Of a DNA stretch of 64,000 bases, positions 8,476 to 36,141 are shown in pieces. The stretch comes from Mesorhizobium sp. Its GTDB lineage: Bacteria > Pseudomonadota > Alphaproteobacteria > Rhizobiales > Rhizobiaceae. Positions within the stretch are counted from its first letter, which is position 1, and each line of letters begins with the position of its first letter. A model generated the notes under the pieces. That model saw only the letters and a list, made by a program, of their open reading frames with translations. It was not told the DNA's origin and did not search any database. Location of the stretch: positions 1 through 64,000 of the forward strand of contig JAIPUZ010000060.1 of assembly GCA_022833215.1 (NCBI GenBank), given 5' to 3'. Position numbers and translations under genes: made by a program.

Positions 8476-9294
8476 TCAGGCGCAGCCGGCCTCCCGCGAA
8501 GCCTGCCGTGCAGCCTCGAAAAGCGCGGCGCGATGATCCTGCGCCTGCGCCGCATCGATGAACGAGACCGTCGTCACCACGCAGGCGATCTCGTTCTGGG
8601 CGTCGAAGACGGGCGCTGCCTTGCCGGTGAGCAGCGAGAAAAGATGCTCCTTCAGATCGGCACCCCCCTCGCGGCGCACTGCTTCCAGAACGTCGGCCCC
8701 CGGAGGTTTTCCCCGAAACGAAGACGGCTGCATGCGGCGCGCGGCCTCGATTCGTTCGGCCGGCAGAAAAGCCTGGAAAACCAGCCCGGTGGCGGTGTTG
8801 TCGAGCGGCAGCACGTCGCCCAGCGACACGGTGCTGACCATGAAGTCGGAACTGCGATACCAGCGCACGATGGTAGGCCCGCGTTCGGTCCAGATCGCGA
8901 CGCCACAGCTTGCGGCGATGCGCGCGGCCAGCGATTTCATCAGCCGTGCGGCCACCTCGACCGGCTCTATGCGCCGCAGCGCACCGATGCCGATATGAAG
9001 CGCCGCCGGGCCGAGATCGTAGCGTCCGGTCGTCCTGTCCTGCGCAACCAGCCCTTCCAGCACCAGACTTTGCATGTAGCGGTGAGCGGTCGAAGTGCCG
9101 GTTCCGGCACGCCGGGCCAGCTCCCCGAGCGCCATGGCCCCCTCCGATTTCGCGAGGATATCCAGGAAACGGGCGGCGATGGAAATCGACTGTATCGTGG
9201 TGGAGCGCTTCGCCCTGTCATTCTCCGCTTCGACGAATTTCTCAGGCTTCACGACCGGAGCCCCGATCTGATCTGGAAAGCCAGAAAATGGCAA
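8476..9294 (-). CDS. IclR-family transcriptional regulator
   Basis: About 272 residues with an N-terminal winged helix (SISIAARFLDILAKSEGAMALGELARRAG, then STAHRYMQSLVLEGLV) and a C-terminal effector domain of the IclR type. The most upstream start is a TTG at 9294; a GTG at 9252 would remove 14 residues and begins closer to the conserved region. IclR proteins usually sense small aromatic or organic acids. It lies tail-to-tail with the monooxygenase gene (10 bp apart) and divergent from the TonB receptor at 9588, so either could be its target. Confidence 0.88.
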   Translation of the reverse strand: MPFSGFPDQIGAPVVKPEKFVEAENDRAKRSTTIQSISIAARFLDILAKSEGAMALGELARRAGTGTSTAHRYMQSLVLEGLVAQDRTTGRYDLGPAALHIGIGALRRIEPVEVAARLMKSLAARIAASCGVAIWTERGPTIVRWYRSSDFMVSTVSLGDVLPLDNTATGLVFQAFLPAERIEAARRMQPSSFRGKPPGADVLEAVRREGGADLKEHLFSLLTGKAAPVFDAQNEIACVVTTVSFIDAAQAQDHRAALFEAARQASREAGCA

Positions 9295-9587: not shown

Positions 9588-11723
9588 ATGTCGACCAAGC
9601 TTGCCGCATCGTTGCTGCGTAGCGCCAGTGCGCTTTCCATCTTGTCTCTGCTGGCTGCGGGGCCTGCGCTCGCACAGGAAGCGTCGTCTGCGGGCAGCGC
9701 CATCGTGCTCGACGTCATCACCGTCACAGGTGAAAAGGTCTCGCGCGAGTTGAAGGACACCGCTTCCTCCGTCGCCATCAGGACGGCGAAGGAAATCGAG
9801 AAGGAAAAGACCGGCAATTCTTCCGTCACCGAGGTCGTTTCGGACGTGCCGAACGTGACCTATACCGAGACGGTCGGGGTTCCGGTGATCCGCGGTCTGG
9901 ACGGGCAGGGGCCCAATACGGGCGCGGGCGCGTTCTTCTCTGGCACGGTGCCGCGTGCCCCCATCAATGTCGACGGGCACTATCTGAACTACAATGAATC
10001 CTACTTCGGCGCGACCTCGGTATGGGACGTGGATTCGATCGAGGTGTTCCGCGGCCCCCAGACCACGTCACAGGGCGCAAACGCCATCGCCGGCGCGATC
10101 ATCGTCAACACCAAGGACCCGACCTTCACCCGCGAAGGCGCCTATCAGGCCGAGATCGGCAACTACAACCAGAAGCGCGCGTCCTTCATGCTTTCCGGCC
10201 CGCTGGTCGAGAACGAGCTCGCCGGTCGCATCGCCGTGGACTATTCGGGACGCGATACATTCATCGACTACATCAATCCTGCCTACAGAGACACGGGAAC
10301 CGACCGCGATTTCAAGGCGCTGAATGCACGGGGCAAACTGCTCTGGCAGCCGTCAGAAATTCCGGGGTTCGAGGCGAAGCTCACCTATTCGCTCAACAGG
10401 ACGAACAGGCCGACGCAGGAATCCGCCTATCTCCCGTTCGATGAACTCAACAGCCATGCAGCGACCATGCCGACCTGGAAGCAGGACACGCATACTGGCA
10501 TTCTCGACATCAGCTACGATTTCGGCAACGGCTACAAGATCTTCAATCAGACCCAGTATTCGGATTCATCCGTCCACCGCAAAATGCCCATGGTGGGTAT
10601 CGGAGCGGCCGATGTCGAGCAAACAAACTTCTCCAACGAGGCCCGTGTCACCTTCGGCGAGCAGGCCGATGTGATCAGCGGCGTCGCCGGCATCTACTAC
10701 GCGCATGTGAGCACAGACGAAAAGCTTGACCTCCCCGGGCGCTTCCCGGGCGCGGGCAACGGCTACTCCGCCTTTGACGACACCAAGGACAATCTTGGCC
10801 TCTTCAGCGAAGTGAACTGGAAATTTGCCGAGCAATGGACCCTCACAGGAGGATTGCGATACCAGCAGGACCGGGTGCAGCGCTCCGGTCTCTCGACCTA
10901 TGCCGAGGATGCGGCAGAATTCGACAAGACGTTTTCTGCCCTCCTGCCCAAACTCTCGCTCACCTACGCAGTTACTCCGGACTGGAATGTCGGCGCTTTG
11001 GTCAGCCGCGGCTACAATCCGGGTGGTATTACGCTGGATTTCGCAACCCGTGCGCCCGAAATTCCCAGGTGGCGCAATTTCAAGGATGAGTCCATCTGGA
11101 ACTACGAGTTGTTTACGCGCGCCAGCCTTCTTGATGAAAGGTTGATGCTGAGCGGCAACCTGTTCTACATGGACTTCAAGAATGCACAGTACAATGTCCC
11201 GGTCGAGTTGCCGGGCTCATCAGGCGTGTACGCATCCTATACGGTGAACGCCGAAAAGGCCCATTCCTACGGCGTCGAGATCGGTGCGGACTATCTCGTT
11301 CTCGATAACCTCACCATCAAGGCGAGCGCAGGCATCCTGCGCACCAGGATCGACGAAATGAATCTCGATACCGAAACGTCGTACAAAGACAACGAGTTCG
11401 CCAAGTCACCCGGTTACATGCTGAGCCTGGGAGCAAGCTGGGATGCGACGGAGAAGCTGACCATTTCCGGCCAGATCCGCCACACGGACGGCTACTATTC
11501 CGATGTCGCCAACACGCCCGGCCTGGCTGTCGGCTCCTATACGGTGGCCGACGCGCGCGTAAGCTACCAGTTCACCGATGCTTTCCAGGTCTATGGATAC
11601 GTCAAGAACATCTTCGACGAGCGCGCGCCGACATATATGCAGCCGAACCGCGGCATTGGCGGCCTCGAGGCCGCCATAACCCCGCCGCGCATGTTCGGCG
11701 TCGGAGTCAGAGGCAGCTTCTGA
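9588..11723 (+). CDS. TonB-dependent outer-membrane receptor
   Basis: 711 residues from the ATG at 9588, which follows a G-rich segment and begins the signal peptide MSTKLAASLLRSASALSILS, cleaved near ALAQ. An in-frame open stretch reaching back to 9411 is not expected to be translated. The plug carries VLDVITVTGEKVS (TonB-box region), PVIRGLDGQGP and VEVFRGPQTTSQGANAIAGAI. The 22-strand barrel ends with the C-terminal aromatic motif (FGVGVRGSF). It should import a ferric siderophore or similar ligand, probably for the ABC system at 2157-7194, since its promoter shares an 11-mer with that system. Confidence 0.95.
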   Translation: MSTKLAASLLRSASALSILSLLAAGPALAQEASSAGSAIVLDVITVTGEKVSRELKDTASSVAIRTAKEIEKEKTGNSSVTEVVSDVPNVTYTETVGVPVIRGLDGQGPNTGAGAFFSGTVPRAPINVDGHYLNYNESYFGATSVWDVDSIEVFRGPQTTSQGANAIAGAIIVNTKDPTFTREGAYQAEIGNYNQKRASFMLSGPLVENELAGRIAVDYSGRDTFIDYINPAYRDTGTDRDFKALNARGKLLWQPSEIPGFEAKLTYSLNRTNRPTQESAYLPFDELNSHAATMPTWKQDTHTGILDISYDFGNGYKIFNQTQYSDSSVHRKMPMVGIGAADVEQTNFSNEARVTFGEQADVISGVAGIYYAHVSTDEKLDLPGRFPGAGNGYSAFDDTKDNLGLFSEVNWKFAEQWTLTGGLRYQQDRVQRSGLSTYAEDAAEFDKTFSALLPKLSLTYAVTPDWNVGALVSRGYNPGGITLDFATRAPEIPRWRNFKDESIWNYELFTRASLLDERLMLSGNLFYMDFKNAQYNVPVELPGSSGVYASYTVNAEKAHSYGVEIGADYLVLDNLTIKASAGILRTRIDEMNLDTETSYKDNEFAKSPGYMLSLGASWDATEKLTISGQIRHTDGYYSDVANTPGLAVGSYTVADARVSYQFTDAFQVYGYVKNIFDERAPTYMQPNRGIGGLEAAITPPRMFGVGVRGSF

Positions 11724-19608: not shown

Positions 19609-19643
19609 ATTCAGGCGAATGGAGGCGCTTGAATTCAGGCGAA
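19609..19643 (+). repeat. Direct repeat in potF leader
   Basis: ATTCAGGCGAA occurs twice, at 19609-19619 and 19633-19643, 24 bp apart in the untranslated leader of the polyamine transporter operon. Function unknown. Confidence 0.5.
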
Positions 19644-19711
19644 AGAGGAGCAGCAGCCCGGTACACGTCAGGCAATTGGCGCAGGGTCCGGGAGGCGAAC
19701 CGGGAGGAAAC

Positions 19712-20809
19712 ATGCGACTTCTGAAACGTTGCGCGCTTGCAGCGCTGGCCACCGTGGCGATGCTTTCGCCTTCTGTCGCCAACGACCAGAAATCCCTCAA
19801 CGTCTACAACTGGTCCGATTATATCGGGGAAACCACGGTTGCCGATTTCGAGAAGGAAACCGGCATCAAGGTCAATTACGACGTCTTCGATTCCAACGAA
19901 GTCCTGGAAGCCAAGCTGCTCGCCGGCCGCTCGAACTACGATGTCGTGGTGCCCAGCGCCCAGTTCCTGGAGCGTCAGGTCAAGGCCGGCGTCTATCTCG
20001 AACTCGATCGCAGCAAGCTGGAGAATTTTGACGATCTCGATCCGGTCCTGATGAAGCAGCTTGCCATGAACGACCCCGGCAACGCCTATTCGGTGCCGTA
20101 TCTGTGGGGGGCGATAGGCATCGGCTACAACAAGGCGATGATCAGGGAGAGGCTGGGTACGGACCAGATCGACTCGCTCGACATCTTCTTCATGCCGGAG
20201 AACGCCGCCAAACTGGCCGATTGTGGGCTGACGCTGCTCGATTCCCCTTCCGAGATCATGGCGACCGCCTATGTCTATCTCGGCATCGATCCCAACAGCG
20301 AAAATCCGAAGGATCTGGAAAAGGGAGTCGAGCTGCTCAAGGGCGTGCGCCCGCATGTGCGCTATTTCCACTCCTCCCAGTTCATCAACGATCTGGCCAA
20401 CGGATCGATCTGCATCACGCTCGGCTATGCGGGCGACATGGTGAATGCGCGCGAGCGCGCGCAGGCGGCCAACAACGGCGTCGACCTTGCGATCATCGTC
20501 CCGAAGGAAGGCGGCATCCTGTTCTTCGACGTCATGGCCATTCCGAAGGACGCACCTAATCCGGAGAACGCCTACGCCTTCATCAACTACATTTCCCGTC
20601 CGGAAGTTCTGGCGAGCCTTTCCAACACCATCAATTTCCCGAACGCCAGCCTCAAGGCCGACCCGATGATCTCCGACGAGGTGCGCAACGATCCGGGAGC
20701 CTATCCGCCCATGGAACTGCGCGACAAGCTCTATGCGATGAAGGCGCACTCGCTGAAGTTCGACCGGCTGCTGACGCGCGCCTGGACCGAGATCAAGACC
20801 GGCAAGTGA
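19712..20809 (+). CDS. Polyamine ABC transporter periplasmic binding protein (PotF type)
   Basis: 365 residues from the ATG at 19712 with the strong site GGGAGGAAAC. Signal peptide MRLLKRCALAALATVAML, mature start near VANDQ. The SLNVYNWSDYIGETTVADFEKETGIKVNYDVFDSNE segment (in two parts about residues 28-62) is the polyamine-binding protein hallmark; WSDYI contributes to the diamine site. It should bind putrescine or spermidine. It heads the four-gene import operon divergent from puuA-puuB, which would metabolise the imported putrescine. Confidence 0.93.
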   Translation: MRLLKRCALAALATVAMLSPSVANDQKSLNVYNWSDYIGETTVADFEKETGIKVNYDVFDSNEVLEAKLLAGRSNYDVVVPSAQFLERQVKAGVYLELDRSKLENFDDLDPVLMKQLAMNDPGNAYSVPYLWGAIGIGYNKAMIRERLGTDQIDSLDIFFMPENAAKLADCGLTLLDSPSEIMATAYVYLGIDPNSENPKDLEKGVELLKGVRPHVRYFHSSQFINDLANGSICITLGYAGDMVNARERAQAANNGVDLAIIVPKEGGILFFDVMAIPKDAPNPENAYAFINYISRPEVLASLSNTINFPNASLKADPMISDEVRNDPGAYPPMELRDKLYAMKAHSLKFDRLLTRAWTEIKTGK

Positions 20810-20831
20810 CGGCCGACAACCGCGGGGACCG

Positions 20832-21974
20832 ATGAGCACGACTATGGAACACCGATCCGCCGGCGCAGGGCCCGGCGGATCCGCGGCTGAACCTTTCGTC
20901 CGCATCGAGGGCATCACCAAACGCTTCGGCGCGACGGTTGCGGTCAATCGCATAGACCTCGACATCCAGCGTTCGGAGCTGTTCTGCCTGCTGGGCGGAT
21001 CGGGATCGGGCAAGAGCACGCTTCTGCGCATGCTGGCCGGGTTCGAGCAGCCGAGCGAAGGCCGCATCCTTATCGACGGCCAGGACATGACCGGGGTTCC
21101 GGCCTATGAGCGGCCGGTGAACATGATGTTCCAGTCCTATGCGCTGTTCCCGCACATGAGCGTTTCCGACAATGTTGCCTACGGCCTGCGCCGGGGCGGT
21201 GTCGCCCGTGCCGAAATCCGCAAGCGCGTGGCCGACATGCTCGACATGGTCAAGATGGGCGACTACGCACAGCGCAAGCCCCACCAGCTTTCAGGCGGCC
21301 AGCGCCAGCGCGTTGCGCTGGCCCGCGCGCTGGTCAGGCAGCCGAAGCTGCTGCTTCTCGACGAACCGCTCGGCGCCCTCGACAAGAAACTGCGCGAGGA
21401 AACCCAGTTCGAGCTGATGAAAATCCAGTCGCAGCTCGGCACCACCTTCATCGTCGTCACCCACGATCAGGACGAGGCCATGACACTCGCCTCCCGTATG
21501 GGCGTGATGCAGGACGGGCGGCTGGTGCAGGTCGGCGGCCCGCGCGATCTCTACGAATTTCCGGTCAATCGCTTCGTTGCCCGGTTCATCGGCGCGGTGA
21601 ACCTTTTCGAGGCGGTGCTGATCGAGGACGAGCCCGGACATGCGCGGCTGCGCTGTGCCGAAACCGGCGGCGTGTTCTATGTCAGCCACGGGGTCAGCGG
21701 CACGCCCGGCCAGACCATGCATCTGGCGCTGCGGCCGGAAAAGATCAATCTCACGCGGGACAAGCCGGATGGAGAGGAAAACGTCGCGCCGGGCGTCATC
21801 GACGAGATCGCCTATCTCGGCAATCTCTCGGTCTATCAGGTACGGCTCGACACCGGTCGGCTGATCCATGTCACGCTGCCAAATCTCGACCGTCACGAAG
21901 GCGAGGCATTCGAGATCGGCAACCGGGTATTTTGCAGCTGGGGGCCGGCCAGCGCCGTGGTGCTGCCGGCATGA
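20832..21974 (+). CDS. Polyamine ABC transporter ATPase (PotG/PotA type)
   Basis: 380 residues. Walker A GGSGSGKST (about residue 55), Q-loop MMFQSYALFPHM, signature LSGGQRQRVALARAL, Walker B LLLLDEPLGALDKKLRE, then a C-terminal TOBE domain (LALRPEKINLTRD). The MMFQSYALFPHMSV stretch is typical of the spermidine/putrescine group. It follows potF by 22 bp and overlaps the next permease gene by 4 bp (ATGA at 21971-21974). Drives import through the two following permeases. Confidence 0.94.
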   Translation: MSTTMEHRSAGAGPGGSAAEPFVRIEGITKRFGATVAVNRIDLDIQRSELFCLLGGSGSGKSTLLRMLAGFEQPSEGRILIDGQDMTGVPAYERPVNMMFQSYALFPHMSVSDNVAYGLRRGGVARAEIRKRVADMLDMVKMGDYAQRKPHQLSGGQRQRVALARALVRQPKLLLLDEPLGALDKKLREETQFELMKIQSQLGTTFIVVTHDQDEAMTLASRMGVMQDGRLVQVGGPRDLYEFPVNRFVARFIGAVNLFEAVLIEDEPGHARLRCAETGGVFYVSHGVSGTPGQTMHLALRPEKINLTRDKPDGEENVAPGVIDEIAYLGNLSVYQVRLDTGRLIHVTLPNLDRHEGEAFEIGNRVFCSWGPASAVVLPA

Positions 21975-22909
21975 GCGTGCAACAACGCCTGAATGCTTCG
22001 CCCGCCCCGGCCCGGCGGCGCAAATCGTGGCGTCTCGGCCGCCACAGCGTGATCGCCCTGCCCTATGGCTGGCTTCTGCTGTTCTTCATCCTGCCTTTCG
22101 CCTTCGTGCTGAAGATTTCGCTGGCCGAGGCCGACATGGCCATTCCGCCCTACACGGCGCTGGTCGAGTGGCTGGACGAAACCACCCTTACGATCCAGCT
22201 CACCTTCAGCAAGTACCAGCTCCTGCTGGAGGACAGGCTCTACCTGTCGGCCTACCTGAACTCGCTCAAGATCGCGGCTATCTCCACCGTCTTCTGCCTG
22301 CTCATTGGCTTCCCGATCGCGCTGTTCATCGTCAGCCGCCCTCCGCATGCACGCTTTTTCTGGCTGGCCATGGTCATGCTGCCGTTCTGGACCTCCATGC
22401 TCCTGCGCGTCTATGCCTGGATCGGCATTCTGCAGAGCAACGGTCTGCTCAACACGTTTCTGATGGATGTCGGCATCATAAATCAGCCTCTGGTGCTGCT
22501 GCATACCGACCTCGCCGTCTATCTGGGCATCGTCTACTCCTACCTGCCGTTCATGGTCCTGCCACTCTATGCGGCGCTGGAAAAGCTCGACCCCGCCCTG
22601 CTCGAAGCCTCGGCCGATCTTGGCGCACGCCCCTCCGTCTCCTTCTTCACGGTGACGCTGCCGCTGGCGGTGCCCGGCATCGTCGCCGGCTGTCTGCTGG
22701 TGTTCGTTCCTGCCGTTGGTGAGTTTGTCATCCCCGCGCTGCTCGGTGCGCCGGACACGCTGATGATCGGCCGCGTGCTGTGGGACGAGTTCTTCGCCAA
22801 TCGCGACTGGCCGATGGCCTCGGCGGTGGCGATCGTCATGCTGATCGTTCTCGTCGCACCGGTGATGCTGGTCCGCGCCCGCGAGACCGCCACCAGGGAT
22901 GAGGCGTGA
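21971..22909 (+). CDS. Polyamine ABC transporter permease (PotH type)
   Basis: 312 residues from the ATG at 21971 that overlaps the ATPase stop. Basic N-terminus (ARRRKSW), six membrane segments starting ALPYGWLLLFFILPFAFVLK, and the EAA loop LEASADLGARPSVSFFTVTLPLAVPG. Forms the membrane channel with the next gene, one base apart. Confidence 0.93.
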   Translation: MSVQQRLNASPAPARRRKSWRLGRHSVIALPYGWLLLFFILPFAFVLKISLAEADMAIPPYTALVEWLDETTLTIQLTFSKYQLLLEDRLYLSAYLNSLKIAAISTVFCLLIGFPIALFIVSRPPHARFFWLAMVMLPFWTSMLLRVYAWIGILQSNGLLNTFLMDVGIINQPLVLLHTDLAVYLGIVYSYLPFMVLPLYAALEKLDPALLEASADLGARPSVSFFTVTLPLAVPGIVAGCLLVFVPAVGEFVIPALLGAPDTLMIGRVLWDEFFANRDWPMASAVAIVMLIVLVAPVMLVRARETATRDEA

Positions 22910-22910
22910 G

Positions 22911-23723
22911 ATGCTGAGAACCGGCCGCTTTGTCACTTTCATGGCCCTTGCCGGCCTGATGTATCTCTACATCCCCATCTTCATCATGATGGTGCTGAGC
23001 TTCAACGGCTCACGGCTGGTCTCCGTCTGGGGCGGCTTCTCGTTCAAATGGTATGGCGAGCTGTTTTCCAACGATCAGTTGCTCAATGCCGCGTGGCTGA
23101 GCATCAGGGTCGCGGGCTTCAGCGCCACGCTCGCCGTGATACTGGGGACGCTGGCAGGCTACGTACTAACCCGCTTCGGCCCCTTCCGCGGGCGCGTGCT
23201 GATGGCCGGTATGGTGACCGCCCCGCTGGTGATGCCGGAGGTGATTACCGGCCTGTCGCTGCTGCTGCTGTTCGTTGCGATGGAGGATTTCATCGGCTGG
23301 CCGCAGGGGCGCTCCATCACCACCATCGTCATTTCGCATGCCACCTTCTGCATGGCCTACGTCGCGATCGTCGTACAGTCGCGGCTGGCGCAGATGGACG
23401 GCGTCCTGGAAGAGGCCGCGCAGGACCTTGGCGCAAGGCCCTGGCGCGCCTTCATCGACGTCACCCTGCCGATGCTCGCCCCGGCGCTGATTTCCGGCTG
23501 GCTGCTCGCCTTCACCCTCTCCTTCGACGATCTGGTCATCTCCAGCTTCGTTTCCGGCCCGGGATCGAGCACCCTGCCGATGGTTATCTTCTCCAAAGTC
23601 AGGCTCGGCGTCAGCCCGGACGTCAACGCGCTGGCTACCATCCTGATCGGTTTCGTCGGCACCTGCGTCTTCGTCTACAGCTGGCGTGCCGGGCGCAGGA
23701 TGCGCATGCGCGAAGACGCCTGA
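22911..23723 (+). CDS. Polyamine ABC transporter permease (PotI type)
   Basis: 270 residues from the ATG at 22911, with GATGAGGCG upstream. Six membrane segments and the EAA loop EEAAQDLGARPWRAFIDVTLP. SFDDLVISSFVSGPGSSTLPM near residue 205 is typical of PotC/PotI. Last gene of the polyamine operon; followed by a bidirectional hairpin. Confidence 0.94.
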   Translation: MLRTGRFVTFMALAGLMYLYIPIFIMMVLSFNGSRLVSVWGGFSFKWYGELFSNDQLLNAAWLSIRVAGFSATLAVILGTLAGYVLTRFGPFRGRVLMAGMVTAPLVMPEVITGLSLLLLFVAMEDFIGWPQGRSITTIVISHATFCMAYVAIVVQSRLAQMDGVLEEAAQDLGARPWRAFIDVTLPMLAPALISGWLLAFTLSFDDLVISSFVSGPGSSTLPMVIFSKVRLGVSPDVNALATILIGFVGTCVFVYSWRAGRRMRMREDA

Positions 23724-26531: not shown

Positions 26532-27533
26532 TTATCCCACCGCCCTGACGGCTTCGATCCTGTCGTATCCGCCGACGATATCGGCGAAGTCCTGCCAGAC
26601 CACGCGCGCGCCTTCTTCCCACGCCTCGCGCGCCTCCGGCTGGAGCACCTTGCCCCCGTTCTCCGCAGCAAGGGCGACGGAGCGTGCTTCGTCGGCCACG
26701 ATCAGTTCGTCGAAATAAGCGGCACCTGCGGTTGCGGCGTCCTGCAAGACGGTTTTCTGCTCGTCGCTCAGACCGTTCCAGAACGGTGTCGAGAAATAGA
26801 CGACGCCGGATGCCCAGATATGGCCTGTCTCCGTGAGATAGGGCACGACTTCATAGAGCTTGAAGCCGGCATAGGCAGACTTTGTCAGGTCCATGGCGTC
26901 GGCAACTCCGGTCTGCAGCGCATTGTAGGTTTCCGGAATCGGGATGCCGATCGGCGTCGTGCCGAATGCGCTCCACAGTTTGGTGTGGAGAGGGCTCTGG
27001 ATAACGCGGATGCGCTTGCCCTTGAGCTGGTCCGGCCGGATGACGGGTTCCTTGGTCAGCAGATGGCGCGCGCCGTAATTGATGAAATCCGCGACGACGA
27101 AGTTCTGCGCGGCGAGCTTTTCCTTCAATGCCGCACCGGTCTCGCCGGAAACAGTCGCGCGCACATGGGCGGCATCGCGGAACAGGAAAGGCAGATCGAG
27201 AAGCTGAACTTCGGGCACCCAGCCCGACAGCGCGGAAACGGTGGAGAGGCTCGCCTGTACCGAGCCAAGCCGGATGCCTTCCGCCACCTCCTTCTCGCCG
27301 CCCAATGCCGCATTGCCGACGATGTTGAAATTGAACTGGCCCGGCAGCTTCTCCTCGACCAGATCGCGGATGCGGTGCCAGATCTGCGTCTCCGGCTTGT
27401 CGTCGCCGAAAAGCGAGGCCACCGTAAGCGTGGTCTGCGCCTGGGCGCGTCCGGCAATGGCCGGGGCGAACAGGGCCGAAGCCCCCAGAGCGGCGGTGGT
27501 GCGAATGAAACTGCGGCGTGTGATGATGGTCAT
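26532..27533 (-). CDS. TRAP transporter periplasmic binding protein (DctP family)
   Basis: 333 residues from the ATG at 27533. Twin-arginine-type leader (TRRSFIRTTAALGASALF, cleaved near AQAQ). DctP fold with EGIRLGSVQASLS, LLDLPFLFRDAAHV, LKGKRIRVIQSP carrying the conserved ligand-binding Arg, and YNALQTGVADAMD. It captures an organic anion for the fused permease encoded 17 bp upstream. In this operon, beside an SsuD monooxygenase, the ligand may be a sulfonate; that is inference. Confidence 0.93.
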   Translation of the reverse strand: MTIITRRSFIRTTAALGASALFAPAIAGRAQAQTTLTVASLFGDDKPETQIWHRIRDLVEEKLPGQFNFNIVGNAALGGEKEVAEGIRLGSVQASLSTVSALSGWVPEVQLLDLPFLFRDAAHVRATVSGETGAALKEKLAAQNFVVADFINYGARHLLTKEPVIRPDQLKGKRIRVIQSPLHTKLWSAFGTTPIGIPIPETYNALQTGVADAMDLTKSAYAGFKLYEVVPYLTETGHIWASGVVYFSTPFWNGLSDEQKTVLQDAATAGAAYFDELIVADEARSVALAAENGGKVLQPEAREAWEEGARVVWQDFADIVGGYDRIEAVRAVG

Positions 27534-27550
27534 GGTTCCGGTTCCGGTGG

Positions 27551-29377
27551 CTAGAGAAGAAGGGCGCCTGCCGTCAGCAGGGCAAGCGATGCGACGAGCG
27601 CGCCGAGATAAGGCATGATCGCCGAGAACAGCGCGCCGGCGGGGACACGCGTCACACCGCTGACGACGAAGACCAGCATGCCGACGGGCGGCGTCAGCCC
27701 GCCGATCATCAGGTTGACGACAAGGATGACGCCGAAGTGGATCGGGTCCACGCCGGCCGCCACCGCAAGCGGCAGGAAAATGGGAGCAAACAGCAGGATG
27801 GCCGCGCCGATGTCGAGCACCAGGCCGATCAGCAACAGCAGCACGTTGATGATGATCAGCACGCCGAGCGGACCAAGGCCGAGGCCCGCAACCAGCGAGG
27901 ACAGAAGACCCGAGACATTGTCCACCGCGAGCAGAAAGGCGAAGGGGCCGGCCGTGCCGATCAGCAGGCCGATGGCTGAAGCCTCGACCGCCGATTGCCG
28001 AAAGGCATCGTAGAGCGGCTGGATGCGCACCCGCGCGCCGAAGCCAAGGAAAAGTGTGTAGAGAGCGGCAAGAGCCGCCGCCTCCGTCGTGGTGACTATG
28101 CCCATGCGGATGCCGGCTACCACGATAACGCCAAGTCCGAATGCAGGTATGGCGGCTTTGGCGGAGTTCAGGCGCTCGGCACGGTCGGCGCGTGGCTGGG
28201 CGGCATGTTCGCTGGCTGTGAAATGGATTGCGATCGCAAGGCAGAGCGCCATGACGCCGCCGGCCACGAAGCCGCCGACCAGAAGCGAGCCGACCGAAAG
28301 ATTGGTGGCGACGGCAAGGATCAGGAAGGCGATGGACGGCGGAATGACATTGTCCAGTACCGAGGTGGCGGCGATGATCGCCCCCGCCTGCGCCGGCGGG
28401 TATCCCTTCTTCACGAGTTCCGGCTGGAAGGTTGCCGAGCCGAACGCGGCATTGGCGACGGACGACCCCGAAGCGCCGGAGAACAGCACGCTGGTCAGCA
28501 GCGTAGTCTGCGCCAGCCCGGCGCGGCGGTGCCCCACCAGCGAGGATGCGAAGCGCACGATCTGCGAAGCGGTGCCGGAAACGGTCAGCAAGCCGCCTGC
28601 CAGCAGGAAGAACGGGATCGCCAGAAGCAGAAACTTCGACATGCCCGTGACGGTGGACAAAACCACCGCCTGCTCGGGCAGCGAACTGCCAAAGGCAATT
28701 GCGAGGTAGGCGGCAGCGAGGAAGGCATGCGGCAAGGGGGCTGCAACGACGAGGCCGATGAGAGCGATCAGGCCCAGCACGATGCTTGGCGGGAGGGAAA
28801 CCGGTACCGAGAGATAGGCGACACCGAGATGCAGTGCCGTGCCGGCGGCAAGCGCGACGATCAGCGGACCCGTCCGGCCTTCCGCAATCCTTTGCAGGCT
28901 GAGCACCAGCAGGATGAGCACGCCGCCCGCCCCCGGAAACCCGAAGCGGACCCACTCGGGCAATCCGAGGGTGGGCGAGATGCCCCCCAGCATCGTGGCG
29001 ATGCGGGCACTGCCGAAGGCGAGGATCAGGCCGGTCAGGACCGTGAAGATGTCGGCGACGACCGGTGCGATCGCCTGCGCCCTTGCCGGCATGCGGTTCA
29101 CGAAGACGTCCAGGCGCATGGCAAGCGCGCTGTTGAGCGCCAGCGGCGCACCCAGCGCTATCAGCGCCACATGCAGCCAGATGCCAAGATCTTCGGAGCC
29201 GAGGAAACCGCTTCCGAAAACATAGCGCAGCGTCACCGCAAAAAGCACACTGACCAGAAGAACGGCAAGCAGGGCCGCACAGGCAGCTCCAAGCACGGCC
29301 TCGACGGCGAGCAGAATCTTGCGGGCCGTCGAGGCCGGTTCCGAGGCAATTTGTGGAGTAACCTGCGCGATCTCCAT
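27551..29377 (-). CDS. Fused TRAP transporter permease (DctQ-DctM)
   Basis: 608 residues: an N-terminal DctQ-like four-helix part (about 1-165, with TLRYVFGSGFLGSEDLGIWLHV) joined to a DctM large permease (about 200-605) with many hydrophobic segments, SGASGSSVANAAFGS and NVIPPSIAFLILA. Fused QM permeases are a known variant. Uses the sodium or proton gradient to import the DctP ligand. It starts 3 bp after the SsuD stop, so it is translated as part of the monooxygenase operon. Confidence 0.94.
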   Translation of the reverse strand: MEIAQVTPQIASEPASTARKILLAVEAVLGAACAALLAVLLVSVLFAVTLRYVFGSGFLGSEDLGIWLHVALIALGAPLALNSALAMRLDVFVNRMPARAQAIAPVVADIFTVLTGLILAFGSARIATMLGGISPTLGLPEWVRFGFPGAGGVLILLVLSLQRIAEGRTGPLIVALAAGTALHLGVAYLSVPVSLPPSIVLGLIALIGLVVAAPLPHAFLAAAYLAIAFGSSLPEQAVVLSTVTGMSKFLLLAIPFFLLAGGLLTVSGTASQIVRFASSLVGHRRAGLAQTTLLTSVLFSGASGSSVANAAFGSATFQPELVKKGYPPAQAGAIIAATSVLDNVIPPSIAFLILAVATNLSVGSLLVGGFVAGGVMALCLAIAIHFTASEHAAQPRADRAERLNSAKAAIPAFGLGVIVVAGIRMGIVTTTEAAALAALYTLFLGFGARVRIQPLYDAFRQSAVEASAIGLLIGTAGPFAFLLAVDNVSGLLSSLVAGLGLGPLGVLIIINVLLLLIGLVLDIGAAILLFAPIFLPLAVAAGVDPIHFGVILVVNLMIGGLTPPVGMLVFVVSGVTRVPAGALFSAIMPYLGALVASLALLTAGALLL

Positions 29378-29380
29378 CGG

Positions 29381-30511
29381 TCAGCCCGCCGCGGTCTTGG
29401 AAAGGTCCCGGTCGAACAGGGTCGACCATGTAAACTGCCTGGCCTGTGGCAGCTCGCGGTTGACGTCGAGGCGCGGCAGGACGCTTTCACCGAAGCGATA
29501 GGCTTCTTCCAGAAGCGGCATTCCCGACAGGATGAAGGTGTCGACACCGGCTTCCCGGTAGGCTTCCAGCGTGCGGATCACCGTATCCGGCGAGCCGACG
29601 ATGGCCGTGCCGGGTCCGGGCCGCACGAGACCGATACCAGCCCACAGATTGGGTGCGACCTCGAGGTCGCGCAGATCGTCTGGCTTGACGCCGCCATGCA
29701 TGGCGCTCATCCGCCGCTGCCCCACGGAGTCGGTATTGGAGACGAACTTCTGGTTGGCGGCTATGGCGGTTTCGTCCATGCGCTCGTAAAGCTCGTTCGC
29801 CGCTTCCCATGCCTTTGCATCGGTGTCGCGCACGATCACATAAAGGCGGATGCCGTAATCGAGCTTGCGCCCGTGGCGTGCGGCGCGCTCCCTGACCGCA
29901 TCGATCTTGACCTTGATCTGCTCGGGCGTTTCGCCCCATGAAAGGTAGGTATCGACGTGCTTGGCGGAGACATCGAGCGCCTTGTCCGAGGAGCCGCCGA
30001 ACCATAACGGCGGCGGCGCGATCGTCTCCCCGACCGGCAGGGCGAGCCTTGCGCCCACGGTCCTGAAATACTTGCCGTCGAAATCCACCGTCTCGCCGGC
30101 GAACAGGCGATGCCAGATCGTCAGATATTCATCTGCCATGTCGTAGCGTTCGTCATGCGGCATGGTCATGCCGTAAGCGCCCAGCATCCTGGCATCGCCC
30201 GATACGATGTTGAGCATCAGCCGGCCGCGGGAGAATTCCTGAAGGGTCGCCGCCATCTTGGCGAGCAGGGTCGGCGCGATCAGGCCCGGGTGTATGGCGA
30301 CGAGAAAGCGCAGCCGCTCCGTATAGGGAAGAAGTGCTGCGGCCAGCACCCAAACGTCATGCGCGCCGGTGGCGAACAGCGCACCGGTGTAGCCCAGATG
30401 ATCGTAAGCCTGCGCGAGTTGACGATAGTAGCCATAGTCTACCGGCCGCGAGCCCTCGGGTTGCCAAGGGTAGCGCCCGTCCGGCGCGCACATGTACCAC
30501 AACACGTTCAT
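29381..30511 (-). CDS. ssuD: FMNH2-dependent alkanesulfonate monooxygenase (SsuD family, LLM)
   Basis: 376 residues, matching SsuD in length and motifs: IHPGLIAPTLLAKMAATLQEFS, HDERYDMADEYLTIW, LWFGGSSDKALDVSAKHVDTYLSWGE, DSVGQRRMSAMHGG and TFILSGMPLLEEAYRFGE. SsuD cleaves C1-C14 alkanesulfonates to sulfite and aldehyde using FMNH2 from a reductase (SsuE), which is not nearby. It lies 15 bp after the SsuA-like gene and 3 bp before the TRAP permease. The ssuB and ssuC transporter genes usual for ssu operons are absent. Relatives include dimethylsulfone and methanesulfonate monooxygenases, so the exact substrate is open. Confidence 0.9.
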   Translation of the reverse strand: MNVLWYMCAPDGRYPWQPEGSRPVDYGYYRQLAQAYDHLGYTGALFATGAHDVWVLAAALLPYTERLRFLVAIHPGLIAPTLLAKMAATLQEFSRGRLMLNIVSGDARMLGAYGMTMPHDERYDMADEYLTIWHRLFAGETVDFDGKYFRTVGARLALPVGETIAPPPLWFGGSSDKALDVSAKHVDTYLSWGETPEQIKVKIDAVRERAARHGRKLDYGIRLYVIVRDTDAKAWEAANELYERMDETAIAANQKFVSNTDSVGQRRMSAMHGGVKPDDLRDLEVAPNLWAGIGLVRPGPGTAIVGSPDTVIRTLEAYREAGVDTFILSGMPLLEEAYRFGESVLPRLDVNRELPQARQFTWSTLFDRDLSKTAAG

Positions 30512-30526
30512 CGCAGTTTCCTTTCC

Positions 30527-31369
30527 TCAGGCGCTGCGGCGCAGATCGCTGATGCGCACCGGGCGCGGCAGATAACCATGGCGATGCAGCGTATCGGCCT
30601 CTTCCTGCTGTTCGGCGAGGATCGTCGCATCGGCCGCGATGACGGAAAAATCGCGAGCGCGGATCACCCTCTCCCACGCATCGGCATCCGCCTCCGCGGT
30701 GCCGGTGGCCGCCAGCCGCTCGGCGGCAAGGCGCGGCGCTGCCGCGACCTCCCGGCCAATGCGGGCCAGTTCGGCAGCTATATATGCCCGCTTGCCGGCG
30801 TCGAGCCCGCGACCCGCGATCGTCCAGAACACGGACCGGTTGGGGATTATGGAGCCGCAGCGGGCTAGCAGACGCAGATCCTTGCGCTCACTCGCCTTTT
30901 CGAGGCGCGGCGCCATGGCCACCCAGGCATGCACCCGCCCCTCCAGAAGAGCAGGCAGCGAATCCGCCGGTTCGACATCCAGGCTCTCCACATCGCGAAG
31001 GCCCAGGCCCGCCTCTTCCAGGCTGCGTGCCAGAAGGTAGTTGTGGAAGGAGCCGTCCACGAGAGCGACGCGGCCGCCCCTGAGATCGGCAAGGCCCGCA
31101 ATATCGCTGTCGGCACGCACGAAGATGCCGCCATTGGCCGGACGAGGCCCCGAGGCCGCCAGATAGACGACGTCGAGTCCGGCCGCCTCCGCCGAGACTG
31201 GCGGCGTCGATCCGGTTCCACCGAAATCGATCTCGCCGCCGGTCAGCAACGAGGCCGTTTCACGGCCGTCGCCATAGTAGACGAAGCGCGGGTTCAGCAC
31301 CTCGAACGCACCCGGCCAGGCACGCGCCAGCATGAGATGCAGATTGCTGGAATGGACGCCGATACGCAT
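30527..31369 (-). CDS. SsuA/NMT1-like substrate-binding protein without a signal peptide
   Basis: 280 residues starting MRIGVHSSNLHLMLARAWPG, directly in the beta-strand that normally follows the leader of aliphatic-sulfonate binding proteins. GGEIDFGGTGSTPPVSAEAAGLD and the two-lobed pattern around GRVALVDGSFHNYLLARSLEEAGL are SsuA-like. No start codon lies further upstream in frame, so secretion by Sec or Tat is unlikely. It is the first gene of the ssuD-TRAP operon. Possible roles are a cytoplasmic ligand carrier for SsuD or a catalytic or sensor variant; none is shown by the sequence. Confidence 0.82.
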   Translation of the reverse strand: MRIGVHSSNLHLMLARAWPGAFEVLNPRFVYYGDGRETASLLTGGEIDFGGTGSTPPVSAEAAGLDVVYLAASGPRPANGGIFVRADSDIAGLADLRGGRVALVDGSFHNYLLARSLEEAGLGLRDVESLDVEPADSLPALLEGRVHAWVAMAPRLEKASERKDLRLLARCGSIIPNRSVFWTIAGRGLDAGKRAYIAAELARIGREVAAAPRLAAERLAATGTAEADADAWERVIRARDFSVIAADATILAEQQEEADTLHRHGYLPRPVRISDLRRSA

Positions 31370-31393: not shown

Positions 31394-31425
31394 GCAATCA
31401 ATCTATCTTTTTATAAATTGATTGC
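31394..31425. promoter_or_regulatory. Inverted repeat between ssu-type operon and ArsR gene; candidate operator
   Basis: GCAATCAAT and ATTGATTGC are perfect 9-bp arms with a 14-bp AT-rich spacer, 24 bp upstream of the SsuA-like start and about 160 bp upstream of the divergent ArsR gene. A typical dimer-sized target for the adjacent ArsR-type repressor. Confidence 0.5.
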
Positions 31426-31586
31426 GAGAACAGGCTTGCCAACAATTGAGCGGGCAGGGAACTTTTGTCGTCGGAAATCCGCTTCCGGGGAAACTCCTTT
31501 GCGATCTGGACGAGAGCGCTTCCGGCATCTTGAAGCGGAGCCAGCGATCCTTATACTTTTTTATGAAGAGTTGCCCGGGAACCGTC

Positions 31587-31955
31587 ATGGCCAGACCAAT
31601 TTCATCCAAGCTGTGCCGCAGCGTTGGCGATGCAAGCGACCTGCTGAAGCATCTGGCCAACCCCAACCGCCTCTCCCTCATCTGCTTCCTGATGGAACAG
31701 GAATGCCCGGTCGCAGTGCTGGAAGAAGAGCTCGGCATCCGCCAGCCAACGCTCTCCCAGCAGCTCGGTGAACTGCGCGACGCTGGTCTCATCGAGGGGC
31801 GGCGGCAAGGAAAGTCGATCATCTACCGTATCGCCGACAGTCGCGCCGAAAGGCTTGTGCTTGCGCTGCGCGAAATCTTCTCCGGCCTCGATGACGTCAC
31901 TGGCCGCCATTCCGGCCCGCGGGGAACGCCGGTTGAAGAGATGATGTTCGACTGA
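31587..31955 (+). CDS. ArsR/BigR-like winged-helix regulator
   Basis: 122 residues from the ATG at 31587, with GGGA 8 bases upstream; an ATG at 31563 has no such site. Winged helix: DASDLLKHLANPNRLSLICFL, ELGIRQPTLSQQLGELRDAGLIEGRRQGKSIIYRI. The segment EQECPVAVLEEELGIRQPTLSQQL resembles the sulfide-sensing BigR/SqrR/YgaV group, which uses two cysteines. Here Cys is present before the recognition helices but none is visible in the C-terminal helix, so the dithiol switch may be missing. Divergent from the SsuD-TRAP operon; GST follows. Confidence 0.88.
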   Translation: MARPISSKLCRSVGDASDLLKHLANPNRLSLICFLMEQECPVAVLEEELGIRQPTLSQQLGELRDAGLIEGRRQGKSIIYRIADSRAERLVLALREIFSGLDDVTGRHSGPRGTPVEEMMFD

Positions 31956-31960
31956 CCCCG

Positions 31961-32590
31961 ATGATCGACCTCTACACGTGGATCACGCCCAACGGCCTGA
32001 AGATATCCATCCTGCTGGAAGAGCTCGGCCTGTCATACCGGGCCCATGCCATCGACATCACGAAGGGCGAGCAGGATCTGCCGGCCTTCCGTGCCGTCAG
32101 CCAGTCGGGCAAGATTCCGGTTATCGTCGATCGCGATGCTGGGGTTACGCTGATGGAGTCCGGCGCGATCATGATCCATCTGGCGGAGCGCGCCGGGCAA
32201 TTGCTTCCGGCAGCCGGCTGGGAACGGCTTGAAGTGCTGGAATGGCTGATGTGGCAGGTGGGGAATTTCGGGCCCACGCTTGGCCATGTTCACAATTTCC
32301 TCACCTACAATTCCGGCAAGGCCCCCTACGCGGAAGACATCTTCCGCCGCGAGACCGGCCGCCTGTATGCGGCTCTCGAAGCGCGGCTCGACGGACGCGA
32401 CCATGTCGCGGGCGCGTACAGCATCGCCGACATATCGCTGTGGCCATGGGTCTCGCGCTATCAACGCCACAAGACCGATCTGACCGCCTATCCCAACGTG
32501 CTGCGCTGGTATCGGAATCTCGCCGGCCGTCCGGCGGTGCAGCGCGGCTACAGGGTGCCGTTCGATACCGGCGATGTTCCGTTGCCGTGA
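31961..32590 (+). CDS. Glutathione S-transferase (YfcG/Nu-class-like)
   Basis: 209 residues. Thioredoxin-like N-terminal domain with TWITPNGLKISILLEELGL, where TPNG is the Nu-class signature, the cis-Pro SGKIPVIVD and ESGAIMIHLAE glutathione-binding segment. The alpha-helical C-terminal domain holds YSIADISLWPWV. Starts 5 bp after the ArsR gene and is presumably co-transcribed. Nu-class enzymes act as disulfide-bond or peroxide reductases with glutathione, which fits the sulfur and redox neighbours. Confidence 0.93.
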   Translation: MIDLYTWITPNGLKISILLEELGLSYRAHAIDITKGEQDLPAFRAVSQSGKIPVIVDRDAGVTLMESGAIMIHLAERAGQLLPAAGWERLEVLEWLMWQVGNFGPTLGHVHNFLTYNSGKAPYAEDIFRRETGRLYAALEARLDGRDHVAGAYSIADISLWPWVSRYQRHKTDLTAYPNVLRWYRNLAGRPAVQRGYRVPFDTGDVPLP

Positions 32591-32966: not shown

Positions 32967-33887
32967 TCAGTGTCGGCCGCCCTGCCCTGCCGATGCCATC
33001 AGATCTGCGGCAACGGTGGCGATCAGTTCCGACAGGCTCTCCATCAGATCGGTCGCGCCGCTTGTCTTGCGCCAGAACAGGCCGATGTCGCGTCGGAAGT
33101 CGCCCGACTCCAGAGGCAGCAAGGCCATGCCGCCCGAAGCGACGGGACCGACGCAGGCAAGTTGCGGCAGCAGCGTGATGCCCATGCCGGCGATCACCAT
33201 CTGGCGCAGCGTCTCGAGGCTCGTACCGCGAAAATCGTCATATTCGCGCGCGCCGTACCGGCGGCACAGGGTCAGCGCCTGGTCCCGCAGGCAATGGCCT
33301 TCTTCCAGCAGCATCAGGTGCTGGCTCGAAAGCGAATCGGCAGGCGCATGCGTCCGCCCGGCCAGCTCATGCCCGCAGGGCACGGCCAGATGCAAAGGTT
33401 CGCTGAACAGCTTTCGTCCCGTCAGGTGCGGATCCTCGACGGGCATCGCAAGCAGCACCGCATCGATCTGGCCGTCGATCAGCCGCCGCAGAAGAACCCT
33501 GCTCTTTTCTTCCGTCAACAGGATTTCCGTGGAAGGAAAGCTGCGCATGAAGCGGGGCACGACATGCGGCAGGAGATAAGGCCCAAGGGTCGGGAAGACC
33601 CCGAGATGCAGGCGGCGCGTGCCTCTGGCGGAATGCCTGGCGGCTTCGTCGCGCAATTGCGCCACTTCGTCGAGAATGGTGCGCGCGCGCCTGACCGTCG
33701 CTTCGCCTGCCTGCGTCAGGATCAGGCCGCGCGGCGAGCGCTCGAACAGCCTGACGCCAAGCTCCTGCTCCAGCTTGCGGATCTGCGCCGACAGCGTCGG
33801 CTGGCTGGCATGGCAGACTTGCGCCGCGCGATGGAAGTTGCGCTGGTCGGCCAGCGCAACGAGATATTCCAGCTCGCGCAGGTTCAT
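32967..33887 (-). CDS. oxyR: Peroxide-sensing LysR-type regulator OxyR
   Basis: 306 residues from the ATG at 33887 (E. coli OxyR has 305). N-terminal HTH MNLRELEYLVALADQRNFHRAA and CHASQPTLSAQIRKLEQELGVRLFE. The redox pair is conserved with the same numbering as in E. coli: Cys199 in EGHCLRDQ and Cys208 in LTLCRR. H2O2 forms a disulfide between them and switches the protein to an activator. It follows ahpF by 13 bp, so it is probably co-transcribed with ahpC-ahpF, and a matching OxyR-type site lies upstream of ahpC. Confidence 0.96.
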   Translation of the reverse strand: MNLRELEYLVALADQRNFHRAAQVCHASQPTLSAQIRKLEQELGVRLFERSPRGLILTQAGEATVRRARTILDEVAQLRDEAARHSARGTRRLHLGVFPTLGPYLLPHVVPRFMRSFPSTEILLTEEKSRVLLRRLIDGQIDAVLLAMPVEDPHLTGRKLFSEPLHLAVPCGHELAGRTHAPADSLSSQHLMLLEEGHCLRDQALTLCRRYGAREYDDFRGTSLETLRQMVIAGMGITLLPQLACVGPVASGGMALLPLESGDFRRDIGLFWRKTSGATDLMESLSELIATVAADLMASAGQGGRH

Positions 33888-33900
33888 CGCATATCCTGCC

Positions 33901-35469
33901 TCAGGCGGCCCGCTCCCCGGCGGGAAGGCGGATGAGATAGTCGAAGGCAGCAAGCGATGCCCTTGCCCCCTCGCCCATGGCGATCACGATCTGCTTGTAG
34001 GGTGCGGTCGTGCAATCGCCGGCGGCGAACACGCCGGGAATCGATGTCGCGCCATGCCCGTCCACGACGATCTCGCCACGCGCGTTGAGCGAGAGCGTGC
34101 CCTTCAGCCATTCGGTGTTGGGCACCAGGCCGATCTGCACGAAGATGCCCTCGAGCGCCAGATCGCGCATCTGGCCGCTGGTGCGGTCCTCATAGGCAAG
34201 GCCGGTGACGCGCTTTCCGTCGCCCCTGACTTCCGTGGTGCGGGCGGAGGTGACGATGGTCACGTTGGGAAGGCTCTTCAGCTTGCGCTGCAACACCTCG
34301 TCGGCGCGCAGCACTTTGTCGAACTCGAACAGCGTGACATGGCCGACGATGCCGGCAAGATCGATCGCCGCTTCCACGCCGGAGTTGCCGCCGCCGATGA
34401 CCGCGATGCGCTTGCCCTTGAACAGGGGGCCATCGCAGTGCGGGCAGAACGCCACGCCCTTGTTGACATACTGCTCCTCGCCCGGAACGCCCATCTTGCG
34501 CCAGCGTGCGCCGGTGGACAGCACCACCGAAGTGCCTGTCAGCGCCGCGCCGGAAGCAAGCGTCACCCTGAAGCCGTCGGCGACCTGCTCAAGCTTCGTC
34601 GCCTTCTGGCCGTTGACGATCTCGGCATCGTATTCGCGGACATGGGTTTCGAGCGCGCGCGCCAGCTTCGGCCCTTCCGTATGCGGCACGGAAATGAGGT
34701 TCTCGATCGACATGGTGTCCAGCACCTGCCCGCCGAAGCGCTCGGCCACCACGCCGGTGCGGATGCCCTTGCGCGCGGCATAGACGGCCGCCGCAGCGCC
34801 TGCGGGGCCGCCGCCGACGATGAGCACATCGAAGGGAGCCTGCGCGTTGATCGCCTCGACGGCGCGGTCCGCCGCGCCGGTGTCGACCTTTGCCAGGATT
34901 TCCTCCACGCCCATGCGCCCGGCACCGAAAGGCTCGCCGTTGAGAAAAATGGTGGGAACCGACATCACCTGCCGCTCGGAGACTTCCGCCTGGAACAGGG
35001 CGCCGTCGATGGCGACATGCTCGATGCCGGGATTGAGCACCGCCATGAGGTTGAGCGCCTGCACCACATCGGGGCAGTTCTGGCAAGAGAGGGAGAAATA
35101 GGTTTCGAAGCGGAAACTGCCCTTCAGCGCCCGGATCTGGTCGCTCAGCGCCTGCTCGACTTTGGGTGGGTAACCGCCGACCTGCAACAGGGCCAGCACC
35201 AGCGAGGTGAATTCATGGCCGAGCGGAATGCCGGCGAAGGTCAGGTGAATGTCCTCGCCAGGCGAGGTCAGCGCGAAGGACGGTACGCGCGCGCCGGACG
35301 TTTCGCCGCGCCTCACCGTGATCTTGTCCGACTGCTCGCGGATCTGGTCGAGGAGTTGCAGCAGCTCGCGCGATTTTGCGTCGTCACCGGCATAGGCGAC
35401 GATCTCGACCGGGCGCACCAGACGTTCGAGATAACCCTTGAGCTGGGCCTTCAGATTGGCATCGAGCAT
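33901..35469 (-). CDS. ahpF: Alkyl hydroperoxide reductase subunit F
   Basis: 522 residues (E. coli 521). N-terminal double thioredoxin-like domain with the Cys129-Cys132 pair in [10 protein letters not shown], then FAD- and NAD(P)H-binding domains with [21 protein letters not shown] and [18 protein letters not shown], and the second redox pair Cys342-Cys345 in FCPHCDGP. It passes electrons from NADH to AhpC. Downstream of ahpC by about 110 bp. Confidence 0.98.
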
Positions 35470-35577
35470 GGCTGCATTCCTCTGCGAAGTGGCGGGAAAG
35501 CGTGCGGGCTTTCCCCTGCATCTGCGGCCGGGCCGCCACAGGCTGGCGGCGGTCCGGCTACCGGTCGTTCCGAAGCG

Positions 35578-36141
35578 TCAGATCTTGCCGACGAGGTCGA
35601 GCGAAGGCGCCAGCGTGGCTTCGCCTTCCTGCCACTTGGCGGGGCAGACCTCACCCGGATGCGCGCGGACATACTGGGCGGCCTTGATCTTGCGAACGAG
35701 GTCGGACGCGTCGCGGCCGATGCCCTCGGCGGTGATTTCCATCGCCTGGATGACACCATCCGGATCGACGATGAAGGTAGCGCGGTCGGCAAGACCCTGC
35801 CCCTCACGCATCACACCGAAATTGTTGGTCACGACACCGCTGGGATCGCCGATCATCGTGTAGTTGATCTTGCCGATGGTGTCGGAGGAATCGTGCCACG
35901 CCTTGTGCGTGAAATGGGTGTCGGTCGAAACGGAATAAACCTCCACGCCCATCTTCTGAAGCTCGTCATAGTGATCGGCGACATCGCCGAGCTCGGTCGG
36001 GCATACGAAGGTGAAGTCGGCGGGGTAAAAGAAGAACACCGCCCACTTGCCCAGCACGTCCTCATCGGTGATGGAAATGAACTTACCCTGGCGGTAAGCC
36101 TGCGCCATGAAGGGCTTGATTTTCGAATTTATGGTGGCCAC
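35578..36141 (-). CDS. ahpC: Alkyl hydroperoxide reductase subunit C (2-Cys peroxiredoxin)
   Basis: 187 residues from a GTG at 36141, supported by AGGAG seven bases upstream and by alignment of [11 protein letters not shown] with the E. coli start. Peroxidatic Cys47 in FTFVCPTEL and resolving Cys166 in GEVCPAKW. Reduces H2O2 and organic peroxides using AhpF. First gene of the ahpC-ahpF-oxyR unit. Confidence 0.97.

Follow-up and report, generated by a model that had tools for sequence, protein, structure and literature searches.

A leaderless SsuA-like protein kept with a divergent SsuD monooxygenase beside TRAP or ABC importers in Mesorhizobium and its relatives: a possible cytoplasmic desulfurisation partner

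The operon

The stretch of DNA considered here (the window) comprises 64,000 nucleotides of Mesorhizobium sp., positions 1 to 64,000 of contig JAIPUZ010000060.1 (assembly GCA_022833215.1). It holds a minus-strand operon of four genes encoding an SsuA-like protein, an SsuD-type monooxygenase, a fused permease DctQM and the binding protein DctP of a tripartite ATP-independent periplasmic (TRAP) transporter. The SsuA-like protein has no leader, and we call it SbpL. A first interpretation made from the letters alone (the sequence-only reading) had described four genes on one strand with gaps of 15, 3 and 17 bp, and the coordinates confirm a single real operon:

30527..31369, minus strand: SbpL, leaderless SsuA-fold protein, 280 aa (frame 31369-30527)
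29381..30511, minus strand: SsuD-like monooxygenase dependent on reduced flavin mononucleotide (FMNH2), divergent subgroup as judged by its RPGP loop, 376 aa
27551..29377, minus strand: fused TRAP permease DctQM, 608 aa
26532..27533, minus strand: TRAP binding protein DctP, leader-like N-terminus, 333 aa

SbpL matches the profiles NMT1 and Phosphonate-bd, and the monooxygenase matches Bac_luciferase. The DctM and DctQ domains of the permease, together with DctP, establish TRAP membership, and profile matches bear out that in the window a TRAP system adjoins SsuD where SsuBC are lacking.

SbpL: leader and cleft

SbpL has the fold and sequence kinship of SsuA, and the leader expected of SsuA is missing, as the sequence-only reading had noticed. 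In the window the frame is open for only 11 codons 5' of the ATG, with no start codon among them, and the aligned position of this ATG is common to 31/31 SbpL rows. An in-frame start 12-60 codons upstream is absent in 42 of 49 rows. Among the seven rows that have one, a leader-like hydrophobic stretch (score 1.96) occurs only in locus L062, which is unclear; the score is at least 1.67 in 20 of the 22 secreted SsuA rows used for comparison. The hydrophobicity check supports a family without a leader, with L062 as the one unclear row. That the protein stays in the cytoplasm had also been proposed; the lack of a leader is observed and, because of it, we infer the place.

In the tree, the 49 leaderless rows fall on one side of a branch and the 22 secreted rows on the other (support 100/100, stem 1.27). 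Trees and column counts exclude incomplete frames and duplicate loci fetched again from the same genome (L045, L049 to L051, L055 to L060), and retain three identical pairs (L005 = L071, L007 = L066, L024 = L069). Residues H6, N9, H11, R36, S54, S73, R76, N79, S107, F108, M152, N177, R178 and W182 are invariant in 49/49 SbpL rows. At position 6 the secreted rows have Q (16 rows) or L (6 rows), and all 22 have W at position 152. In total, 31 of 43 tabulated columns, which were chosen for looking conserved, are invariant across the 49 rows, some as low as 44-45% identical to the window. The ligand contacts described for X. citri SsuA are Gln36, Gly68, Gly86, Ser141 and Trp185 (PMC3839906). SbpL does not keep this set: Gln36 is replaced by His6, Ser141 by Phe108 and Trp185 by Met152 in every row, and the two sulfonate-contact glycines align to G35 and G53, both kept in 49/49. 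As aligned, the predicted cleft of SbpL is rebuilt and invariant relative to that of secreted SsuA.

The SsuD partner

Two SsuD profiles clearly outrank all other NCBIfam matches of the monooxygenase, but it scores below the cut-off of each, with 435 against 510 bits for one and 423.6 against 518 bits for the other, the SsuD equivalog TIGR03565. In MsuD, the sulfonate is bound by W195, R225 and R296; the loop consensus is RGGA, the loop of MsuD itself reads RGGS, and the backbone NH of its fourth residue contacts the sulfonate (PMC8234197). The Trp-Arg-Arg triad is kept in the window (W192, R222, R297) and in 49/49 SbpL-linked rows. The loop reads RPGP in the window and in the same 49 rows, with a proline, which lacks that backbone NH, as its fourth residue. 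MsuD Tyr330 is replaced by Met and His227 by Tyr, again in the window and all linked rows, and His10 falls into a one-residue gap of the alignment with the window SsuD. Among SsuD proteins not linked to SbpL, RGGA with Tyr is found in 15/17 from the draw of family genomes and in 5/6 within the linked-row comparison, where the L047 entry is a 26% match and not an SsuD. Judged by these residues, the SbpL-linked SsuD is a divergent subgroup with a changed sulfonate pocket, and, because RPGP replaces RGGA, a plain alkanesulfonate seems a less likely substrate than the sequence-only reading had assumed. The SsuD proteins of loci L104 and L108 belong to a third type, in which Asn occupies the Tyr331 place and no loop fits the RGGA pattern.

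At E 1e-10 this is the only SsuD match in the window's genome. That genome also has six FMN_red and four Flavin_Reduct matches outside the operon, candidate flavin reductases that could supply FMNH2.

Distribution and pairing

The four-gene order was sought in other genomes, and a scan gave 30 loci at 48 to 67% identity, named Rhizobiaceae, Phyllobacteriaceae, Paracoccaceae or unplaced Rhizobiales. All 30 keep SbpL, SsuD, DctQM and DctP in order along with an ArsR regulator, and 28 also have a match to a glutathione S-transferase (GST); the synteny is not due to chance. Clustering of 45 loci (window included, all fetched by SbpL, two identical pairs among them) recovered SbpL with SsuD in 45/45, ArsR in 43 and GST in 33.

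Carriage is patchy. SbpL was found in 13 of 297 family genomes at E 1e-50, and its family profile in 4/397 genomes of the order draw and 3/398 of the phylum draw, the window's own genome being counted in each. In the class draw, 11/385 genomes gave a match at E 1e-15, and only the window's own exceeded 36% identity. Viral contigs gave 15 pattern matches, none of them a relative. The 13 family genomes with SbpL are the same 13 in which an SsuD at 78% identity or more occurs, no other SsuD there exceeding 55%; among these genomes, no close relative keeps this SsuD without SbpL. Six of them (G431, G467, G476, G630, G654, G664) also carry another SsuD, 47 to 54% identical, which makes the SbpL-SsuD pair an additional system in these genomes. 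The gap between the two genes ranges from -4 to 41 bp over 58 loci, some of which are repeat fetches of one genome. Full-text literature searches, judged by the titles and abstract openings that they listed, gave no description of the operon.

In two loci, L076 (11447-13039) and L119 (11135-12727), DctP is followed by a 530-aa GGT-family protein (70% mutual identity; nearest solved chain 5hft). An amidohydrolase was considered as a core member and rejected, since this protein follows DctP only in these two of 47 loci searched.

TRAP and ABC importers

The start of DctP is leader-like when read by eye (RRSFIRTTAALGASALFAPAIAGRAQA). R156 and R176 of DctP are invariant in 31 rows, and the anion-binding arginines of the isethionate protein IseP are given as Arg156 and Arg177 (PMC11668362). 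The pair is typical of TRAP anion binding and does not distinguish a sulfonate, the ligand proposed in the sequence-only reading, from a carboxylate. Where IseP has its supporting Asn, DctP seems to have a leucine (alignment to 4n15, read by eye), which leaves the case for a sulfonate ligand unchanged, and many solved TRAP proteins score alike against DctP, so that ligand class is not separated.

In six relatives (L061 to L065 and L074, the last a Rhizobium lusitanum plasmid), SbpL and an SsuD at 78 to 81% identity are followed by a permease, an ATPase and a further SsuA of the ATP-binding cassette (ABC) type, with no TRAP genes; profiles for the ABC genes were run for L062 and L064, and the L064 permease was found by tblastn. 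The further SsuA has a leader-like start, read by eye, and groups with the secreted rows in the tree. The sequence-only reading held that TRAP genes had taken the place of the ABC parts. This is what the window contains, and the idea of SbpL as a remnant of an ABC importer fails, because in these relatives it stands beside a complete ABC importer that has a secreted SsuA of its own. Across the loci compared, the fixed core appears as SbpL with SsuD, and the importer, TRAP or ABC, is interchangeable. The ABC group adjoins the Paracoccaceae TRAP loci in the tree, and TRAP as the older state is suggested because a TRAP locus, L078, is the first branch beside it.

Two loci have peculiarities of their own. 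In L078 (Terrarubrum), DctP lies in two frames (10762-11663) and may be broken or carry a sequence error, and a NIPSNAP-family gene (8501-8815) stands between SsuD and the TRAP permease. On the Agrobacterium Ti plasmid pTiQ15_94 (L075, 5974-10193), the module has only an ABC permease and lies about 1 kb from a gene of the octopine/nopaline dehydrogenase family.

The regulator and a putative operator

Upstream of the first gene lie two further genes and a palindrome that had not figured in the sequence-only reading:

31587..31955, plus strand: BigR-like ArsR regulator, divergent from the operon (profile, alignment)
31961..32590, plus strand: YfcG-like GST, 3' of ArsR (profile match)
31394..31425, strandless: inverted repeat upstream of SbpL, 13-nt arms around a spacer of 6 nt, putative ArsR operator
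31544..31567, strandless: direct copy of 31394-31417, 71% similar, before the ArsR gene, possible second site

ArsR scores 97.1 bits against the BigR profile NF040642, below the cut-off of 155. In the alignment to 3pqj, its C33 aligns to one of two BigR cysteines, which we take to be the sensor cysteines, and the other is missing; C10 is invariant in 31 rows. With one of the two cysteines lacking, sensing of sulfite or persulfide is a lead only.

The pattern derived from the palindrome has no other match in the window's genome at up to 3 mismatches. Eleven of 49 upstream stretches hold an inverted repeat with at least 10/11 arm bases matching, vs 0.7% of shuffles; seven of these, the window included, are of the ATCAATTT type and the remaining four differ. 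On these counts, the window and some Rhizobium relatives probably have a local operator. The copy at 31544-31567 is a two-copy match and may be chance. Five Agrobacterium-group loci (L015, L018, L020, L022, L026) have another imperfect inverted repeat in place of the window's palindrome, about -114 before SbpL, with 8/11 arm matches, no better than shuffles.

Comparison with known systems

The Ssu systems of E. coli and X. citri (ssuEDACB) likewise place an SsuD-type monooxygenase and an SsuA-fold protein in one operon. The window's operon differs in having no SsuBC, no leader on the SsuA-like protein and no flavin reductase, and in the loop and pocket of SsuD. Sulfonate TRAP systems other than that of IseP exist, and the isethionate system resembles the one here in pairing a TRAP importer with two conserved anion-binding arginines; literature searches for a TRAP transporter with SsuD or alkanesulfonate monooxygenase listed no paper whose title names such an operon. 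The structures 7olf and 7oh2, which we take to be sulfoquinovose monooxygenases although the match listing names them otherwise, are more distant from the window SsuD, scoring 193 and 174 bits where SsuD itself reaches 376.

In dszABC and bdsABC, a flavin monooxygenase lies beside a protein of the binding-protein fold, there a desulfinase (the fold is taken from the DszB structure). The bdsABC genes are described as encoding a desulfinase and a pair of flavin monooxygenases, one of which carries the annotation alkanesulfonate monooxygenase, and ABC importer genes have neighbouring locus numbers (PMC3868597). DszB has a catalytic Cys27 near its N-terminus and an RXGG motif (PMC6100217). SbpL differs in lacking both, and the monooxygenase here is nearer SsuD. 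The sole cysteine of the window SbpL is C171, a Cys within the first 35 residues occurs in 2/49 rows, and RXGG in 2/49, at residue 203, off the place of the DszB motif. SbpL as a DszB desulfinase is rejected on these motifs.

What SbpL may do

Joint function of SbpL and SsuD on one cytoplasmic substrate or its product would be the simplest account, because both pockets have changed and the partners are not seen apart while the importer changes. We tentatively favour the reading that SbpL is a cytoplasmic partner of SsuD, probably an enzyme, in a module for import and desulfurisation that a local ArsR controls. A TRAP importer in the window, or an ABC importer in relatives, would take up an anionic organosulfur compound, which the divergent FMNH2-dependent SsuD would oxidise. 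SbpL would work in the cytoplasm with SsuD and not with the importer, catalysing a companion step before or after it, for example release of sulfite from a sulfinate, or substrate preparation, and ArsR with the palindrome would give local control. That SbpL is catalytic, and by which reaction, is our guess by analogy. Thi5, DszB and MqnD, all among the SbpL fold matches, are enzymes of the binding-protein fold; an enzyme is favoured on two grounds, namely that other proteins of this fold have evolved into cytoplasmic enzymes and that in bdsABC such a monooxygenase is accompanied by a desulfinase. The more specific proposal, that SbpL is a new enzyme of this kind which, with the retooled SsuD, carries out a two-step desulfurisation of an unrecognised natural organosulfur anion behind interchangeable TRAP and ABC importers, is rather more doubtful.

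Several points weigh against an enzymatic partner. SsuD enzymes release sulfite unaided, and a second step is not required. The hallmarks of DszB are absent, the closest match of SbpL in fold and sequence is plain SsuA, a binder, and a specific binder would also show an invariant cleft. The choice of columns and the greater diversity of the secreted comparison rows bear on the cleft argument, and C171 and H109 are kept in only 47/49 and 39/49 rows. Constant pairing is what genetic linkage alone would also yield. As for local control, tblastn finds no ArsR in one locus (L064), and the palindrome type is not shared by all loci, 38 of 49 upstream stretches falling below the score.

SbpL could instead be a ligand sensor or valve that, on binding a product or the compound taken up, makes SsuD, the importer or ArsR more or less active. 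The cytoplasmic SsuA-like domains of the transporter subunits CmpC and NrtC are thought to act in this way, though they are part of a transporter ATPase and SbpL is free and paired with SsuD. It stays with SsuD across importer types and is not tied to one transporter, and the lack of an ArsR match in L064 also tells against a sensor, which we consider unlikely. Somewhat less likely still is a protein that binds and does not catalyse, carrying substrate to SsuD or sequestering a toxic product, which comes near to the sequence-only reading. The retained G35 and G53 and the tight pairing with SsuD speak for a carrier; the remaining SsuA contacts have changed in all rows (His6, Phe108, Met152), and soluble substrates rarely need one. 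That this is an ordinary sulfonate operon with a swapped importer and a stranded SsuA of no more importance is very improbable: SbpL is SsuA-like in fold and sequence, but the invariance of its tabulated columns, its presence with SsuD in every clustered locus (fetched by SbpL) and its retention next to a full ABC importer all argue otherwise. A vestigial SsuA is rejected on this conservation.

Significance

To our knowledge, many breakdown routes for sulfonates and sulfate esters are without assignment. A module conserved in rhizobia and Rhodobacterales, in which the sulfonate pocket of the monooxygenase is changed, suggests that the substrate is not one of the plain alkanesulfonates, and annotation as SsuA and SsuD may mislead for it. 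If the favoured account is true, SbpL would be another importer-type binding protein that has come to serve a catabolic enzyme in the cytoplasm. In aerobic soils most sulfur is present as sulfonates and sulfate esters (PMC3839906), and the gene set is carried by certain soil and marine bacteria.

Other genes in the window

At 32967-36141, an OxyR-like LysR gene (295 of 329 bits) lies beside AhpF and a frame that reads by eye like a peroxiredoxin. The frames at 19619-23723 read, also by eye, like a polyamine-type ABC importer with a binding protein, an ATPase and two permeases.

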